Below, in pieces: positions 13,571 through 46,540 of a stretch of 64,000 nt of DNA; within the stretch, counting starts at the first letter, position 1; every line of letters begins with the position of its first letter. Source of the DNA: Pandoraea pulmonicola (GTDB lineage Bacteria; Pseudomonadota; Gammaproteobacteria; Burkholderiales; Burkholderiaceae); assembly GCF_000815105.2 (NCBI RefSeq), contig NZ_CP010310.2, positions 3,038,001-3,102,000 of the forward strand, given 5' to 3'. A model generated the notes under the pieces. It did no database searches and had not been told where the DNA came from. It saw only the letters and a program-made list of their open reading frames with translations. The position numbers and the translations under genes were made by a program.

Positions 13571-14758
13571 ATGAGGCCCCTGGACGGCATCAAGGTCATC
13601 GCGCTCGAACACGCCATTGCGGCGCCGTTCTGCACCCGCCAACTGGCCGATCTCGGCGCGCGCGTCATCAAGATCGAACGGCCGGGCGCGGGCGACTTTG
13701 CACGCGCTTACGACGGCCGGGTGAACGGCATGTCGTCGCACTTCGTGTGGACCAACCGTTCGAAGGAAAGCCTCACGCTCGATCTCAAGCAGAACGCCGC
13801 GCAAGCCGTGCTGCACGACCTGCTCGCCGACGCCGATGTGCTCGTGCAGAACCTGGCCCCGGGGGCCGCGGACCGCCTCGGATTGAGCTACGAGGCGTTA
13901 TCCGAGCGCTATCCCCGCATCATCGTCTGCGGCATCTCGGGCTACGGCCCGGACGGTCCTTACCGCGACAAGAAGGCGTACGATCTGCTCATCCAGAGCG
14001 AGTCCGGTTTCCTCTCCGTGACCGGCTCACCCGACGCGTCGGCCAAGGCCGGCTGCTCCATCGCGGACATCGCCGCGGGAATGTACGCCTACACGAACAT
14101 CCTGTCGGCGCTGATTCAGCGCGGCAAGACCGGACGCGGCAGCCGCATCGACATCTCCATGCTCGAGTGCATGGTCGAGTGGATGGGCTTCCCGCTCTAT
14201 TACTCGATCGACGACCAGACGCCGCCGCCGCGCGCCGGCGCCGCCCATGCCACGATCTTCCCGTATGGCCCCTTCGAGACCGGCGACGGCAAGACCGTCA
14301 TGCTCGGCCTTCAGAACGAACGCGAGTGGAAGATATTCTGCGACAAGGTGCTGGAGCAACCGTCGCTTGCCGAGGACGCGCGCTTCGCCTCCAACCCATT
14401 GCGGCTCGAACATCGCGACGCCCTGCGCACAATCATTCGCGACGTGTTCCGGCAACTCGACGCGCCGCAACTGGTGCGCCGCCTCGACGCCGTCGGCATC
14501 GCCAACGCCAACCTCAATACGATGCACGACGTGTGGGAACACGCGCAGTTGGCCGCGCGGCATCGCTGGACCGAAGTGAGCTCGCCGAACGGCAAGATCC
14601 GCGCGCCGATTCCGCCGGGCATGCCCGCGCCCGGCGGCGACTTCACCCCGCGCATGGATCCGATCCCCGCGCTCGGGCAGCACACGGATGCGATCCTCGC
14701 CGAGCTTGGCCGTTCGGCCGCACAGATCGACGCGCTGCATGCAGCGAAGGCAGTGTGA
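13571..14758 (+). CDS. Family III CoA-transferase (CaiB/BaiF)
   Basis: 395 residues of the CaiB/BaiF fold, which moves CoA between carboxylic acids through an Asp-bound anhydride. The catalytic Asp is probably Asp138 in KKAYDLLIQSESG. The N-terminus (LDGIKVIALEHAIAAPFCTRQLADLGARVIKIE) is typical. The ATG at 13571 has GGAG eight bases upstream; the very long frame that contains it is antisense-like over the transporter gene. It lies 35 bp after the transporter and 3 bp before the lyase. Its likely role is to turn the imported hydroxy-acid into its CoA ester. Donor and acceptor cannot be read from sequence. Confidence 0.92.
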   Translation: MRPLDGIKVIALEHAIAAPFCTRQLADLGARVIKIERPGAGDFARAYDGRVNGMSSHFVWTNRSKESLTLDLKQNAAQAVLHDLLADADVLVQNLAPGAADRLGLSYEALSERYPRIIVCGISGYGPDGPYRDKKAYDLLIQSESGFLSVTGSPDASAKAGCSIADIAAGMYAYTNILSALIQRGKTGRGSRIDISMLECMVEWMGFPLYYSIDDQTPPPRAGAAHATIFPYGPFETGDGKTVMLGLQNEREWKIFCDKVLEQPSLAEDARFASNPLRLEHRDALRTIIRDVFRQLDAPQLVRRLDAVGIANANLNTMHDVWEHAQLAARHRWTEVSSPNGKIRAPIPPGMPAPGGDFTPRMDPIPALGQHTDAILAELGRSAAQIDALHAAKAV

Positions 14759-40321: not shown

Positions 40322-41650
40322 ATGTCCAATCAAGTCACCTCTTCCCGCCCCGTGCGGGACACTTTCCCCGTGTATCAGGCGGGGGCCGGCTGGAACGCCC
40401 TGCTGCCGCCCCGCGTGCCGCACACGAAGGCGCCGTTGGCGCGCAGTTTCGACGTCATCGTCATCGGCGCGGGGTTCACCGGCCTGGCGGCCGCCCGCCG
40501 GGTGGCAGAGCTACGCCCCGAAACGAACGTGCTGGTGATCGATGCGACCACGGTCGGCAACGGCTCGGCCGGGCGCAATTCGGGCTTCCTCATCAACCTG
40601 CCTCACAACACCGGCATGGGCGGCCACGGCAGTCCGGTGGAAGTCGCGCGCAAGCAGATCCATCTCTATGACCTCGGCCTGAAGTGGTTGCATGAACTCG
40701 TGCGGACACACGGGATCGATTGCGGCTGGAACCCGGTCGGCAAGTATCACGCGGCAGCCACCCGCGACGGAGAGCAACGCCTGCGCGACACGCTCGCGCA
40801 ATATCGCGAGTGGGGCGTGACCTATCGGGAACTATCGCGCGACGCACTGCAAAGCGAGATCGGCACGGACTACTACGGCTACGGGTATCACTCGGACAAC
40901 AACGTGTTCGTGCAGCCGGCCGCGCTCGTGCGCGGGCTGGCCGACACGCTGCCGGCCAATGTCCGCCTGTGGGAGGACGAGCCGGTACTCTCGCTCGACG
41001 GCACGGGACCATTCACCGTAACGACGCCCAACGCCACGTTGAGCGCCCCGCAGGTGATCGTCGCCAACAACGGCTTCGCCCGCAAGCTCGGCCTCGCACG
41101 CGATCGCGTGTTCACGATCTACACTTACGCGGCAATGACGCCGGTGCTGGCCGCCGAGGAACTCGCCAAGCTCGGTCCCGCGCGCGAATGGGGCGTGATT
41201 CCCGCCAACCGGCTCGGCACTACGCTGCGCAAGACGCTCGGCGGACGCTTCGTCGTTCGCAGCGCGTATTCGTATGAGAAGGAACGCCCGATGGCCGACG
41301 TCGACGCCATGTTGACGGACGCGTACCGCCGCCGTTACCCGCACATGGCAACGCACAGATTCGAGCATGTCTGGGGCGGAGTCACCGCCCTCACGCGCAA
41401 TGGCGCACTGTACTTCGGCGAAATTCGCCGAGGGCTGTTCGCGTCGCTGGGCTGCAACGGCGCCGGCGTACTCAAGGGCAGCATGTTCGGCAAGTTGCTC
41501 GGCGAGATGGCATGCGGACAGCAGTCCCCGGAACTGGCCGACGCGCTGGGCTTCGAGCGCCCAACCTGGCTGCCGCCGGAGCCGATCCGGCGCCTGGCCA
41601 TCGTGTCCGCGATCCAGTATCAGAAGCATCGCGCCGGGCTGGAACGGTAA
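40322..41650 (+). CDS. FAD-dependent amine/amino-acid oxidase (DAO family)
   Basis: 442 residues. The FAD-binding dinucleotide fold starts at about 40 (FDVIVIGAGFTGLAAARRVAEL), with a second conserved block GNGSAGRNSGFLINLPH, as in PuuB/OrdL-type oxidases, and a C-terminal FAD contact LFASLGCNGAGVLKGSMFGKLLGEM. It is the last gene of the importer operon. It is probably a cytoplasmic oxidase of the imported amine or N-methyl compound. The start has no good ribosome-binding site. Confidence 0.9.
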   Translation: MSNQVTSSRPVRDTFPVYQAGAGWNALLPPRVPHTKAPLARSFDVIVIGAGFTGLAAARRVAELRPETNVLVIDATTVGNGSAGRNSGFLINLPHNTGMGGHGSPVEVARKQIHLYDLGLKWLHELVRTHGIDCGWNPVGKYHAAATRDGEQRLRDTLAQYREWGVTYRELSRDALQSEIGTDYYGYGYHSDNNVFVQPAALVRGLADTLPANVRLWEDEPVLSLDGTGPFTVTTPNATLSAPQVIVANNGFARKLGLARDRVFTIYTYAAMTPVLAAEELAKLGPAREWGVIPANRLGTTLRKTLGGRFVVRSAYSYEKERPMADVDAMLTDAYRRRYPHMATHRFEHVWGGVTALTRNGALYFGEIRRGLFASLGCNGAGVLKGSMFGKLLGEMACGQQSPELADALGFERPTWLPPEPIRRLAIVSAIQYQKHRAGLER

Positions 41651-41726: not shown

Positions 41727-43091
41727 TCACAGCGACATCAGGAATCGCAGAAGATCCGCGCGCGCCTGCGGCGACATGGCACGAAAGCGTTCGCGCGAAA
41801 CGCGTGCTTCGCCGCCGTGCCAGAGAATCGCTTCCTGCAGCGTGCGCGCGCGGCCATCGTGCAGAAACGTTGCGTCGGGATTGACGTGCACCGCGAGCCC
41901 CAAACCCCACAGCGGCGGCGTGCGCCAGTCGCGCGGTCCGGCAAGGAAGTCGGGACGACCATCGGCGAGTCCCGTCCCCATGTCGTGCAACAGCATGTCC
42001 GTGTAAGGCGCAATGTCGCGATTCGCCATCGCCGCCAGCGGCGGGAACGCGCCTGTCCGCAACACTGACACATGGCACGCGGCACATCCAGCCTGCGCAA
42101 ATCCGCGCTCGCCGCGCATGACCCGAGGGTCGTCGACGTCGCGACGCGCAGGAACCTCGAGTGTTCTCTGGAAATACTCGACGGCGTCGAGTTGAGCGTC
42201 CGTCAGATCGGGTTGGCCGTCGGTGGGCGCGGCGCGGCATGCCGTCTGTACCGCCGGACAGGATTTTGTCGGATAGACCGTCGACGTGACGCCCAGATCG
42301 CCCACGAACGCACTGGCGATCTGCTGCCGTATCGTCGGCTGGTTCGCCTTCCAGCCGAAGCGTCCGACGACCTGACGTTTCGCCGTCGCGTCCCATACGC
42401 GGTTGACCTTGCCACGCACGCCGTCGGGCAGGCGTCGAGCGGCCAGCGCATGCAGCGTGCCGTCGTCCACGGCTTCCAGCCAGCCAAGGCCATACACCGG
42501 CGAACCAACGCGCGCCGAGGTCATCGTGCCGTGTCCCAGCGAGCCGAAGGCCAGATCGGTAAAGCGCAATTGCGGCACCCGCAGCGTGACGATCTCGCCG
42601 CCGGCGAGGCTCTCGCTGCGCGTCGTGTAATGCACGCGCACCTGCCCTTCGGCGGGCACGCCGGGAATGGCCTTGTCGCCCAACTGATCGCCGTAGTCGG
42701 GATGCTCGCGCGGCGCACCTGTGGCCGTCTTGCCCGGCACGCTCAGGCGCACCAGTAACCCGTGCGGCGCCTCGTCCGGCCCTACCGGTGCGTTGCCGCG
42801 CCCGAACTTCACGTGACAAGCGATGCAGGAAATCTGGTTGTAGACGGGGCCCAGCCCCGCGATCCGACGCTCGGATGACGGGTAGACCACCCAACTCTGA
42901 CGAAAGAGCGCTCGCCCCTCGGCAAACTGCGTGAGAGACGCGCCCTCCTCACTCGCGAACGCCATCGGCTGGCCGAATGCCTCGCGCGTCACCGGCACAC
43001 CCGCCGTCTGCGCGCCTGCGTGAGACGACAGCATGCCACTTAGCAGCGCTGCGCCCAGACGGGTGCGCCATCGCACGCTCAATCCAGACAT
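41727..43091 (-). CDS. Di-heme c-type protein (DUF1111, di-heme oxidoreductase family)
   Basis: 454 residues with a short signal peptide. It has two haem-attachment motifs: CIACH at 89-93 and CAACH at 336-340. The long region between them fits the family distantly related to di-haem peroxidases. The second motif is followed by WRTPPLWGLGLAVH, typical of DUF1111 proteins. I use the ATG at 43091, which lies inside the last codons of the upstream binding-protein gene (13-nt overlap) and has GAGGCG before it. It is the third gene of an operon with a TonB receptor and a binding protein. The electron donor and substrate are unknown. Confidence 0.9.
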   Translation of the reverse strand: MSGLSVRWRTRLGAALLSGMLSSHAGAQTAGVPVTREAFGQPMAFASEEGASLTQFAEGRALFRQSWVVYPSSERRIAGLGPVYNQISCIACHVKFGRGNAPVGPDEAPHGLLVRLSVPGKTATGAPREHPDYGDQLGDKAIPGVPAEGQVRVHYTTRSESLAGGEIVTLRVPQLRFTDLAFGSLGHGTMTSARVGSPVYGLGWLEAVDDGTLHALAARRLPDGVRGKVNRVWDATAKRQVVGRFGWKANQPTIRQQIASAFVGDLGVTSTVYPTKSCPAVQTACRAAPTDGQPDLTDAQLDAVEYFQRTLEVPARRDVDDPRVMRGERGFAQAGCAACHVSVLRTGAFPPLAAMANRDIAPYTDMLLHDMGTGLADGRPDFLAGPRDWRTPPLWGLGLAVHVNPDATFLHDGRARTLQEAILWHGGEARVSRERFRAMSPQARADLLRFLMSL

Positions 43092-44440
43092 GTCGCCTCT
43101 TCGGAAAGCCACTGCCGCACCTGCGACGTCCGCGCCTCGAGCGCCGACGCCCAAACGGCTTCGTACGCGTCGGCTCGCGCACCGGCCTCGGCGTCATTGC
43201 GTCGCCGGTCGAATGTCTTGCGCAACGAGATATCGGATGCCGTCGCGGCGTCGATCGGCGCCTGCGTCAGCAACGCGCGAGCCTTTGCGAGACAACGACC
43301 GTCCGCCGCCTGTGTTGCCTGGCGATCGTTCAATTCGTGCCAGCGCGTCCAGAGCGCCGTCAGTTCGGCCTTGCGTTGCGTCACGAAGACGTCGAAGAGC
43401 GCGTTGTCCAATGCGTAGCGAGACAGCCCGAGCGTTTCCTCGTATGTGGCGCCCGCCGTCGCGGCGTTGGCGGCAAATGGGTCGTGAGTCCCCCTGGGCG
43501 CATCGCGATAGACACTCGGGCGCACTGGCAACTTGCGCACATCGGGCGCAAACAGCAGCCGCTGCCCCTCGTCGGAGAGCACGAACGCGACGAACGAGCG
43601 GGCAGCGTCGAGATGCCGGGTATCGCGCAGGATGCCGATGTGTGCCGGCGAGTAGCCCGTGCCCGGCGGGTAGAGGAAGGCGAGCGGCGCACCGTTGGCG
43701 ATGGCCGAGCTGGCGAAGAAATCGATCGTTACCGCTATCGAGAGCGGCGCCCGCATGCCTTGCGACAGACTCGCGAACGCCCCGCCCGTCTGTGCGAACA
43801 CAAAGTTCGCCCCGGCCTCGGAGAGCAACGCCCATCCGCTGTCCCACCCCTCGGACTGCAATATCACGTCGAGCAATGTCGGTGCGAAACCGACGCGGCT
43901 CGGCACGGGAAACAGCACGTGGCCGCGATAGCGCGGATGCGTCAGGTCCTGCCACGTCCGCGGCGCAGGCAGCCCTTGCCGGGCCAGTGTGGCAGGGTCG
44001 ATCATGAAGCCGAACCCCGCAATCTCGGAGGCGACGAAGCGCCCCTCGGGGTCGGAGATCCGAAACTTGCCCACATGCGACGGCAATCCGCTCAGATCGA
44101 CGTCGAGCTTGCGCAGCGAGCCCTCTTGCGCCAGATCCGCGAAGTTGCGCACGGCAGGCGACCAATACACATCGACGCCGCCTTGCGCGGGACCTTGCAG
44201 GAAATCGTAGGCGTCCCGATGCTGCCGCCAGAGAACCTGCAGGGCGATCTCGGGATGCCTGCGCTCGAACGCCCGCTCGAACGTCGCCACCACCTCCTCG
44301 GGGTAACTCGTCAACACGGTCAGCGTTTCGCGTGGCGCCGATACCGCCGCACCGGACATTGCCGCCAATACCCACGCGGCGGCGGCATGGCGGACGAAAC
44401 GAGTCCACTTTCCCCACCCCTTCATGGCTTGTGCTCGCAT
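43079..44440 (-). CDS. Periplasmic substrate-binding protein of a metal-type ABC importer
   Basis: 453 residues. A signal peptide ends near 35 (VLAAMSGAAVSA), followed by a binding-protein fold of the ferric-iron/spermidine class: ETLTVLTSYPEEVVATFERAFERRHPEIALQVLW, then VDVYWSPAVRNFADLAQEGSL and LTHPRYRGHVLFPVPSRVG. The C-terminal 100 residues are helical and charged, longer than usual. No permease or ATPase is next to it; the gene lies between a TonB receptor (12 bp before) and a di-heme protein (overlapping). The start has GGAG seven bases upstream. The ligand could be iron or another metal complex. Confidence 0.87.
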   Translation of the reverse strand: MRAQAMKGWGKWTRFVRHAAAAWVLAAMSGAAVSAPRETLTVLTSYPEEVVATFERAFERRHPEIALQVLWRQHRDAYDFLQGPAQGGVDVYWSPAVRNFADLAQEGSLRKLDVDLSGLPSHVGKFRISDPEGRFVASEIAGFGFMIDPATLARQGLPAPRTWQDLTHPRYRGHVLFPVPSRVGFAPTLLDVILQSEGWDSGWALLSEAGANFVFAQTGGAFASLSQGMRAPLSIAVTIDFFASSAIANGAPLAFLYPPGTGYSPAHIGILRDTRHLDAARSFVAFVLSDEGQRLLFAPDVRKLPVRPSVYRDAPRGTHDPFAANAATAGATYEETLGLSRYALDNALFDVFVTQRKAELTALWTRWHELNDRQATQAADGRCLAKARALLTQAPIDAATASDISLRKTFDRRRNDAEAGARADAYEAVWASALEARTSQVRQWLSEEATCLD

Positions 44441-44452
44441 CGCTTGTCTCCG

Positions 44453-46459
44453 TCAGAACGCATAGTTCACGTTGACGTAATAGTTGCGCCCCGCCTCCGG
44501 ATACCCTTCGGTGTAAGCGTAGTTGCGGTCGAAGATGTTGCGCACGCCAAACTCGGCCGTCACGTTGCGCACAACCTTCCACGCGAGCTTCGCGTTGGCG
44601 ATGCCGAAACCGGCGGCAACGCGACGGCCGTCGCTCGAACTCACGCGCGACGAGGTGAACTCGGTGTCGCCGCTCAACGCCACCGCCGACGTGATACTCC
44701 ACTTGCCATAGAGGAAAAGCTTGTGACGGGGTGCGTCGGTCAGCACGATCGACGGATCACTGCGGTTCTGCCGGTTCAGGTACGTGTAATTGCCGCCGAC
44801 TTCCACGCTGTCGCCGATCTGGCTGTTGAGCGAAACCTCGACCCCCTGCGCCACCACATGGCCCACGTTCTGCATCTGCGTGCACGGCGGGTTGCTGCAT
44901 GCACTCGCCGGAATCGATGCGCCCTGAATCAGATTGCGGATATCGCTGTAGAACAGGTTCACGGTCCCGGTGGTGCCCGGTGCGATGCTTTCGCTGTAGC
45001 CGAGCTCGACGTTGGTCGCGCGCTCTGGCTTGAGGCCGGCGTTCGGAATGGCGGTCCCCATGCGGTACGAATAGCGGTCCTTGATCGTCGGAAAACGGCT
45101 CTTCTCCGCCACGCCCAGGTGCACCTTGCCAGTAGGCGACGTCTTGTAGACGAAGCCGATCTGCGGATTCCAGGCGTCGACGTTGTCCTTCGGGAAATCG
45201 ATGAGCTGGTTGGACGCGCTCACGTTTTCGGCGCGGCGCGCGATGCGCCGGTCGTAGCTCACCCCCGCCTGCGCGGAGAACCGGTCGGTGAACTCGTGCG
45301 TGTCTTCGAGACCGAACGACAGCGTCGTGTCCTCGAAATGCTGGTCCGGCTTGCCTGGATTGATCTCGTGATGGAAATCGTTCTTCACATGGGCGGCGAA
45401 TTTCAGCGTATTGGCGCTGAAGAGCTTCGTACCGACTTCGGCGCTCGCGCCCCACGTATGGTCGTCATAGGACGAGTTCGACGAAGTCTTCTTCAACTGG
45501 GTCGAATACGTCGCATCGTCGTACATGCTCAGGGCATTCTTGTACCGATCGTAGTAAGCGCGCAGCTTCACGTAGCTGTCGTCGCCCAGTTGGGTACGCG
45601 AGATGTAATACACGCTCTCCTTGTCCCAGTACGGCCAGCGCCAGTAGCGTGCGGTCTGGGTCGGGTCGGTGCCCGCGTACGGCGGGTTGCCCTTCGTGCC
45701 CTGCTGGTTGATGTAGTTCAGCGAGTACTCGTCCGTGGCGTTCGGCGTCAAACCGATCTTGAGGTTGATCTTGCGATCGCGATGGCTCGAATTGTTGCGA
45801 CGGCCCGGCGCCTGCCCCGGCACACCCCTGAACGCGTCGGACAGCGTGTAGAAGTCGCGCTCCAGGTACGATCCGCTCGCCTGGATGTACCACATGCCCC
45901 GATTGCTGCCGAGGTTGAAGTTCCCCTGGTAGCCGTTGTTGGCGAACCGCCGGTCGAACATCAGGCCGCCGCCGATATTGCCTTCGAACTCGCTTTGCGG
46001 ACGACGGCTCACCAGGTTCACCACGCCGCCCAGCGTGTTCGGCCCGGCGAGCACCGTGCTGTAGCCCTTCTGAACGTCGATGGCGCCGAGGTCGAACGTC
46101 GTGAAGCGCCCGAGGTCGACATAACCGTCGTACGACACGTACACCGGAATACCGTCGATGAGCAGCGGCACCTGGCGCATGTCGAAGCCGCGCACGTAGA
46201 CCATCTCCTCGTTACGCGGGCCGACTTTCGAAATATTCACGCCGGGCAGCATGTCGAGCGCGGCGCCCACCGTCAACCGGCTCGCCTGCTCGATCTGTTC
46301 GGCGTCGAGCGTCTCCGTTCCGGCCGGGATTCGCTCGCCCCTGGCCGTCACGTCCACACGTCCCAGCTCAAACACAGGCTCTTCGGCGGCATAACCCGCC
46401 GTCGACGACACGGCGGCCGCCAACATCCACGGAAGCTTTCGCTTCGAAATCCGACTCAT
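44453..46459 (-). CDS. TonB-dependent outer-membrane receptor
   Basis: 668 residues. Signal peptide (MSRISKRKLPWMLAAAVSSTAGYA), then a plug domain with VGAALDMLPGVNISKVG, EEMVYVRGFDMRQVPLLIDGIPVY, GAIDVQKGYSTVLAGPNTLGGVVNLVSRRP, and a beta-barrel ending in Phe. Such receptors import metal chelates or cobalamin using TonB energy. The ATG at 46459 gives a clean signal; a GTG four codons upstream is possible. A Mo-box-like palindrome lies 58-81 bp upstream, so molybdenum control is likely. It heads the operon with the binding protein and the di-heme protein. Confidence 0.93.
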   Translation of the reverse strand: MSRISKRKLPWMLAAAVSSTAGYAAEEPVFELGRVDVTARGERIPAGTETLDAEQIEQASRLTVGAALDMLPGVNISKVGPRNEEMVYVRGFDMRQVPLLIDGIPVYVSYDGYVDLGRFTTFDLGAIDVQKGYSTVLAGPNTLGGVVNLVSRRPQSEFEGNIGGGLMFDRRFANNGYQGNFNLGSNRGMWYIQASGSYLERDFYTLSDAFRGVPGQAPGRRNNSSHRDRKINLKIGLTPNATDEYSLNYINQQGTKGNPPYAGTDPTQTARYWRWPYWDKESVYYISRTQLGDDSYVKLRAYYDRYKNALSMYDDATYSTQLKKTSSNSSYDDHTWGASAEVGTKLFSANTLKFAAHVKNDFHHEINPGKPDQHFEDTTLSFGLEDTHEFTDRFSAQAGVSYDRRIARRAENVSASNQLIDFPKDNVDAWNPQIGFVYKTSPTGKVHLGVAEKSRFPTIKDRYSYRMGTAIPNAGLKPERATNVELGYSESIAPGTTGTVNLFYSDIRNLIQGASIPASACSNPPCTQMQNVGHVVAQGVEVSLNSQIGDSVEVGGNYTYLNRQNRSDPSIVLTDAPRHKLFLYGKWSITSAVALSGDTEFTSSRVSSSDGRRVAAGFGIANAKLAWKVVRNVTAEFGVRNIFDRNYAYTEGYPEAGRNYYVNVNYAF

Positions 46460-46516: not shown

Positions 46517-46540
46517 CGTTATATATTTATCTATATAACG
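46517..46540. promoter_or_regulatory. Mo-box-like palindrome (ModE operator candidate)
   Basis: Perfect 9-bp arms CGTTATATA and TATATAACG around the 6-bp TTTATC. It matches the ModE recognition pattern, CGnTATATA-N6-TATATAACG as I recall it, and continues into CGAT on one side. It lies 58-81 bp upstream of the TonB receptor ATG, over the expected promoter. Such AT-rich symmetry is rare in this GC-rich DNA. Confidence 0.72.

Follow-up and report, generated by a model that had tools for sequence, protein, structure and literature searches.

A putative ModE operator before a TonB-dependent receptor operon in Pandoraea pulmonicola and its probable link to molybdenum uptake

Described systems closest to the locus

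Molybdate is usually thought to reach the periplasm passively through porins, and ModE loaded with molybdate represses modABC. To our knowledge, how Mo-catechol complexes enter the cell is an open question. The E. coli ModE consensus has been printed as ATCGNTATATA-N6-TATATANCGAT (PMC545781). Here we describe a site of this type in a 64,000-nucleotide stretch of the Pandoraea pulmonicola genome (contig NZ_CP010310.2, positions 3,038,001 to 3,102,000 of the forward strand; referred to below as the window). With the ModE regulon as presented in that source (PMC545781), the Pandoraea regulon has in common the sequence and spacing of the site, ModE itself and, within one genome, the modABC promoter; an operon for an outer-membrane TonB receptor would be its addition.

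TonB-dependent receptors have been tied to other metals, through NikR-like sites (PMC5317091) and, for copper and manganese, in the cases of OprC and MnoT (PMC8602904). As these sources present them, the likeness lies in control by the supply of a metal that is imported or thought to be imported (PMC5317091, PMC8602904); whereas those receptors concern nickel, copper and manganese, the regulator and the probable cargo here point to molybdenum. The T6SS-ModA-IcmP system of Pseudomonas aeruginosa has been proposed to deliver molybdate at the cell's outer membrane; among the literature searched it is the single such route described for molybdate, and the available part of the source does not present it as a TonB receptor (PMC8602904). 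MolBC-A of Haemophilus influenzae imports molybdate, and HI1471 and HI1472 have relatives among the genes that adjoin the receptor in deltaproteobacteria; it differs in being an inner-membrane system, and a term search of the available text did not find the word TonB (PMC4031551). In Acidithiobacillus ferrooxidans, a cluster that combines siderophore receptors with a TonB system and a ModA-like protein was tied to nitrogenase, an earlier form of the idea that one receptor cluster may serve Fe and Mo; the legend marks a Fur box, a ModE site is not mentioned in the part of the paper available, and its receptors are set beside ours by description only (PMC2631029).

In the open-licence literature searched, no Mo-regulated TonB receptor was found described; such a regulon may nevertheless have been predicted before. 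The terms molybd-, tungst- and oxyanion do not occur in a review of the substrates of TonB-dependent transport from 2024 (PMC11658791), which is weak evidence of novelty because nickel and copper are absent from that review too. The receptor fold and the regulator are known, and the site together with ModE is textbook; it is the combination, and the probable class of cargo, that the same literature was not found to describe.

The Mo-box, its regulator and the receptor operon

An earlier note on this DNA had reported a perfect inverted repeat before a TonB receptor gene and had likened it to the ModE recognition pattern. Both statements stand, in position as well as in sequence: in CGTTATATA-TTTATC-TATATAACG (Table 1), two 9-bp arms form a perfect inverted repeat around a 6-bp spacer. 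The receptor gene is on the minus strand, and the palindrome occupies the stretch 58-81 bp upstream of its ATG (46459). At every defined position, the arms CGTTATATA-N6-TATATAACG agree with the core of the printed E. coli consensus for ModE (PMC545781). Expressed as the palindrome CGnTATATA-N6-TATATAnCG, the pattern is matched at 18/18 arm positions. The receptor may start not at this ATG but at GTG 46471 (codon 46469-46471), as suggested by GAGGGG about 8 nt before the GTG in the aligned upstream regions of relatives; with this start, the Mo-box would stand 46-69 bp upstream. Scanning the surroundings of the Mo-box for the sigma-70 consensus gave no promoter.

With up to 3 mismatches allowed, the pattern occurs at just two places in the 5,867,621-base genome (one contig), and the reversed control pattern has zero occurrences in the same whole-genome scan. 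The second site, with 2 mismatches, lies directly before modA, which is followed by modB and modC; i.e. a Mo-box-type element precedes the molybdate transport operon of the same genome. As the list holds these two sites only, none of the other receptor genes has one.

The genome also encodes a full-length ModE (L003; 283 aa), with an HTH DNA-binding domain and two Mop domains, which scores 107.8 bits against TIGR00637 (curated cut-off 98.5) and has E. coli ModE as its best PDB match (1b9m, 8.2e-46). A further ModE-like protein of 169 aa, at 4,353,176 (4353176-4353427; L004, L149), is HTH-only, falls below the TIGR00637 cut-off and is without molybdate-binding domains; its gene is near modABC, with neighbours that by eye resemble a formate dehydrogenase gamma subunit and a CoxG-like protein. 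The absence of mod genes from the window, noticed before, agrees with our annotation, which covered part of it; modABC and the two ModE-type genes have other locations on the contig.

Table 1. Coordinates of the Mo-box, of the receptor operon and its convergent neighbour (window positions), and of formate dehydrogenase genes in two other genomes (locus positions)
Feature	Position	Strand	Basis
Mo-box, proposed ModE operator of the receptor operon	46517..46540	.	sequence, rarity, conservation
TonB-dependent outer-membrane receptor (plug and beta-barrel)	44453..46459 (ATG) or ..46471 (GTG)	-	PF07715 and PF00593 over cut-off
Periplasmic substrate-binding protein, AfuA/MctA/FbpA structural group, extra helical C-terminal part	43079..44425	-	Pfam PF13343 best
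Di-haem oxidoreductase (DHOR), last operon gene	41727..43091	-	PF06537 8.1e-86; start read from translation
FAD oxidoreductase gene, convergent, after the operon	40322-41650	+	ORF and Pfam
NAD-dependent formate dehydrogenase genes (Mo-box at 1501 of each locus)	L028:54-1376; L032:19-1233	-; -	PRK07574 over cut-off

The receptor (668 aa from the ATG, 672 aa from the GTG) is one of 16 plug-domain matches in the genome, where TonB_C matches exist too. Its architecture, an N-terminal plug and a beta-barrel, is confirmed by the Pfam domains, by an AlphaFold2 model (pLDDT 82.7) and by the best structural matches of that model, BtuB, OprC and FecA. Compared as a profile with PDB sequences, it matched the colicin I receptor and iron-siderophore receptors most strongly. 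Assignment as a haem, siderophore, B12 or copper receptor was rejected, since 0/25 matching NCBIfam families reach their own curated cut-off; the best score was 156.1 bits for TonB-hemin against a cut-off of 316.85.

The binding protein has a weaker match, also over cut-off, to PF13531, a Pfam family matched by ModA proteins as well. It was nonetheless rejected as a ModA: TIGR01256 is unmatched, and only three phosphonate-type models match, all below cut-off. The ligands of its structural relatives are ferric iron, sugar phosphates or metal-citrate. All three operon genes are tightly packed, with a 13-bp overlap where the binding-protein gene ends and the DHOR gene starts. Di-haem proteins may be linked to imelysin/IcmP operons. 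Comparison with the PDB found no solved relative of this DHOR by sequence. The operon in the window does not include a gene for an inner-membrane transporter, nor was a Mo gene seen beside it.

Conservation of the site and of molybdenum genes across receptor loci

To survey close relatives, 299 genomes of the same family were drawn evenly from a larger group, with a receptor threshold of E ≤ 1e-100. The receptor is rare among them (8/299, own genome included), and a Mo-box with 0-1 mismatches lies shortly before the gene in 8/8 of the orthologues found, one of which, in another genus and at 49% protein identity, has an extra second site with 2 mismatches. In an alignment of the 8 receptor upstream regions, the Mo-box is the densest conserved stretch. 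Within Pandoraea, at least two sites with up to 2 mismatches were found in 7/7 receptor-bearing genomes versus 7/25 without the receptor. When sites were collected in the family genomes by the bare pattern, 18 of the 30 loci fetched had ModA, ModB or ModE alongside and 12 had no mod gene within about 1.5 kb.

Two genomes from another genus of the family have a Mo-box about 125 and about 270 bp before a gene for NAD-dependent formate dehydrogenase (Table 1). This kind of formate dehydrogenase needs no metal and no molybdenum, and the Mo-box there may therefore be a molybdenum-sparing switch.

For distant relatives, a homologue search scored 7997 candidates, of which 2391 had E ≤ 1e-80; the best 120 of the 2391 were listed. 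A 24-sequence alignment then gave 530 related loci (one genome per species), and the best 80 of the 530 were used. Five Pandoraea loci are excluded from the counts (n = 75), and L119, whose upstream region is too short, from the site counts as well (n = 74). A site within 400 bp upstream of the receptor match was present in 3, 18, 25 and 36 of the 74 loci at ≤1, 2, 3 and 4 mismatches, respectively, the loci being interdependent in that several are congeners. With 500 permuted palindromes on the same 74 loci, the maxima were 0, 0, 2 and 6 and the means 0, 0, 0.024 and 0.37. Across all 80 loci (1.32 Mb, the 5 Pandoraea included), 46 sites at ≤3 mismatches were found versus 0-4 for 26 permuted controls.

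Sites span receptor loci of the beta-, gamma- and deltaproteobacteria and the Bacteroidota. At ≤3 mismatches they include Solimonas, Oryzomicrobium, Rugamonas, Methylobacter, Thiomargarita and deltaproteobacterial genomes and, in the Bacteroidota, Larkinella, Spirosoma, Runella and Fibrisoma. No site at this threshold was found within 400 bp upstream in 49/74 distant loci, the Flavobacterium loci among them; in L058, L080, L084 and L088 a site with 1-3 mismatches lies further upstream than 400 bp. The earlier note had looked to a modE gene, to further copies of the site and to conservation before orthologous receptors, and all three were found: a ModE above its family cut-off, one more site, directly upstream of modABC, and a palindrome kept in 8/8 orthologues within the family and, at ≤3 mismatches, in 25/74 distant loci. 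Its interpretation of the palindrome as a ModE site gains accordingly, and on computational grounds a ModE operator controlling the receptor operon is well supported.

A different kind of element was found at two deltaproteobacterial receptor operons without a site near the receptor (L089 and L068). Each is preceded by a Moco-II RNA (RF01713; 61.3 and 56.5 bits, gathering score 35), followed by a methyltransferase gene and the receptor and then by FecCD-type importer genes; L089 also has a 1-mismatch site at 13632, after the FmdE gene. Moco-II matched in 3/50 genomes, with 10 matches in all, 2 of them placed at receptor operons (the two whose surroundings were examined); full Rfam scans covered 16/80 loci. 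If Moco-II senses the cofactor, as its Rfam name suggests, one receptor family is under two unrelated kinds of Mo-linked control, which would be strong independent support for the link to molybdenum.

Two other signals were set aside. The classical Moco riboswitch (RF01055) matched in 5/50 genomes, with none tied to a receptor operon. The Desulfovibrio-type signal, given in its source as CGGTCACG-N14-CGTGACCG (PMC545781), gave scattered 2-3-mismatch matches in 17/80 loci, none of them just before the receptor.

The genes around the receptor were counted in the 75 non-Pandoraea loci, using score thresholds that we set ourselves. ModE/Mop was found in 31, ModA in 17, ModB in 11 and TupA in 3 (before the receptor, all in Methylophaga), with at least one of these in 34; linkage to Mo/W genes is thus seen across the receptor family, not inside the window. 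The 31/75 loci with ModE/Mop are far from chance because a gene with one or two copies per genome would lie within a given 18-kb stretch about 1% of the time, a figure that we estimated rather than counted in a control receptor family. Ten ModE-type matches were checked, of which 7 were HTH-only, 2 full length and 1 Mop-only; among the ten is L111, below the threshold used for the 31. Further neighbours were FmdE (18), Peripla_BP_2 together with a FecCD permease (15) and small Oxidored_molyb proteins (26), and the binding protein occurs in 31/75 loci, DHOR in 32/75 and both in 30/75. Even when the more distant upstream sites and L111's ModE are counted, 16/75 loci show no site, no ModE, ModA, ModB or TupA and no Moco-II.

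Three gene orders recur: modE-modABC-receptor-SBP-DHOR (e.g. L055, L069, L087); receptor-FmdE-PBP2-FecCD-ATPase (L073, L105, L106, L123); and HTH-only modE-receptor-Oxidored_molyb (L112, L120, L126, L107). The best PDB match of one neighbouring FecCD permease was HI1471 (1.9e-62); for one neighbouring PBP2 it was 4pag (1.9e-73; a periplasmic binding protein, function not stated), with HI1472 third (3.6e-15). HI1471 is the MolBC-A permease and HI1472 its binding protein.

FmdE-type proteins accompany the receptor and FecCD-type importer genes in deltaproteobacterial loci (L100, L089, L123 and others), and in L100 the protein is fused to a methyltransferase domain. Small Oxidored_molyb proteins (PF00174) follow the receptor in Bacteroidota loci (e.g. 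L077, L096, L101, L112) and in L111 (Prosthecobacter), two of them checked against Pfam; a molybdenum compound may be their periplasmic ligand.

Proposed route and competing explanations

A putative molybdenum switch stands before genes for outer-membrane import, a pairing that is seen again in distantly related bacteria; the operon is therefore probably an overlooked route of molybdenum uptake. We consider it highly probable that this is a ModE-controlled, TonB-dependent operon that imports molybdenum, as molybdate, tungstate or a chelate, under scarcity, the substrate being read from regulation and gene context. When molybdenum is replete, molybdate-loaded ModE would bind the palindrome and repress the receptor operon together with modABC; when it is short, ModE would leave and the operon would be expressed. 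The receptor would use the proton motive force (TonB-ExbBD) to bring a molybdenum species across the outer membrane, presumably molybdate, perhaps tungstate, or a chelate. The periplasmic binding protein would capture the cargo or hand it on, the di-haem protein might, at a guess, run a redox step that strips the metal of its ligand, after which molybdate in free form would enter through ModABC. Deltaproteobacterial receptors would pass their cargo straight to a Mol-type ABC importer. For the Pandoraea lineage our guess is a chelate rather than naked molybdate, because a binding protein of metal-citrate/ferric type accompanies a redox protein.

One alternative is that ModE truly controls the operon and the cargo is something other than Mo or W that is wanted when molybdenum is short, e.g. 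chelated iron or a cofactor needed by backup enzymes that work without Mo. The ligands known for relatives of the binding protein and the siderophore-receptor matches of the receptor profile would suit such a cargo, and ModE-type sites do precede non-transporters, such as the formate dehydrogenase in two family genomes; however, ModE, ModA, ModB or TupA in 34/75 loci, and FecCD permease and Peripla_BP_2 in 15/75, make this explanation unlikely. We give somewhat less credence to a cargo of tungstate or a molybdenum-cofactor-like compound instead of molybdate, a proposal that partly overlaps the preferred, tungstate-allowing one. ModA is a far commoner neighbour than TupA (17 versus 3 of 75), and ModE senses the oxyanion, not the cofactor, against which stand the Methylophaga TupA loci, the small stand-alone Oxidored_molyb proteins adjoining the receptor in Bacteroidota and the Moco-II leader on two operons. 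That this is an ordinary ferric-siderophore receptor operon with a coincidental likeness to a Mo-box is very improbable: the fold is common to iron receptors and some homologues carry the source name 'iron complex outermembrane receptor', but the site is conserved far above permuted controls, the only other site in the genome precedes modABC, and the receptor loci are linked to Mo genes.

The Azotobacter vinelandii member of the family (L116; 47% identity) has the same binding-protein and di-haem genes. Upstream of it is the exact core TATATA-N6-TATATA, though the full site is matched with 5 mismatches, and its neighbourhood yielded no Mo gene. As a Mo-controlled case it is thus suggestive only, and weaker than the others. 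We offer a broader proposal tentatively, and lean somewhat against it: that there is a widespread, unnamed TonB receptor family dedicated to Mo (or W) and wired to a ModE box or a Moco-II RNA, working with the binding protein and di-haem oxidoreductase in beta- and gammaproteobacteria and with FmdE and a Mol-type ABC importer in deltaproteobacteria; that a Mo chelate would be opened in the periplasm; and that the Azotobacter vinelandii member might be the missing Mo-siderophore receptor.

If a conserved Mo-regulated TonB family does exist, many bacteria would spend energy on moving molybdenum across the outer membrane, which would be most relevant where molybdenum limits nitrogen fixation or nitrate respiration. 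The family would supply candidate genes for the entry of Mo-catechol complexes, one of them in a model nitrogen fixer; with Azotobacter vinelandii among its members, the question of an outer-membrane receptor for Mo complexes becomes testable. The surprise for specialists would lie less in the Mo-box itself than in its breadth before one receptor family, in at least two phyla.

A minor observation concerns the periplasmic partners. In L053, a second pair of binding-protein and DHOR genes (L053:4435-7247) lies upstream of the receptor operon, with a Mo-box (2 mismatches) at 2079; the binding protein and DHOR can therefore exist without a receptor of their own.
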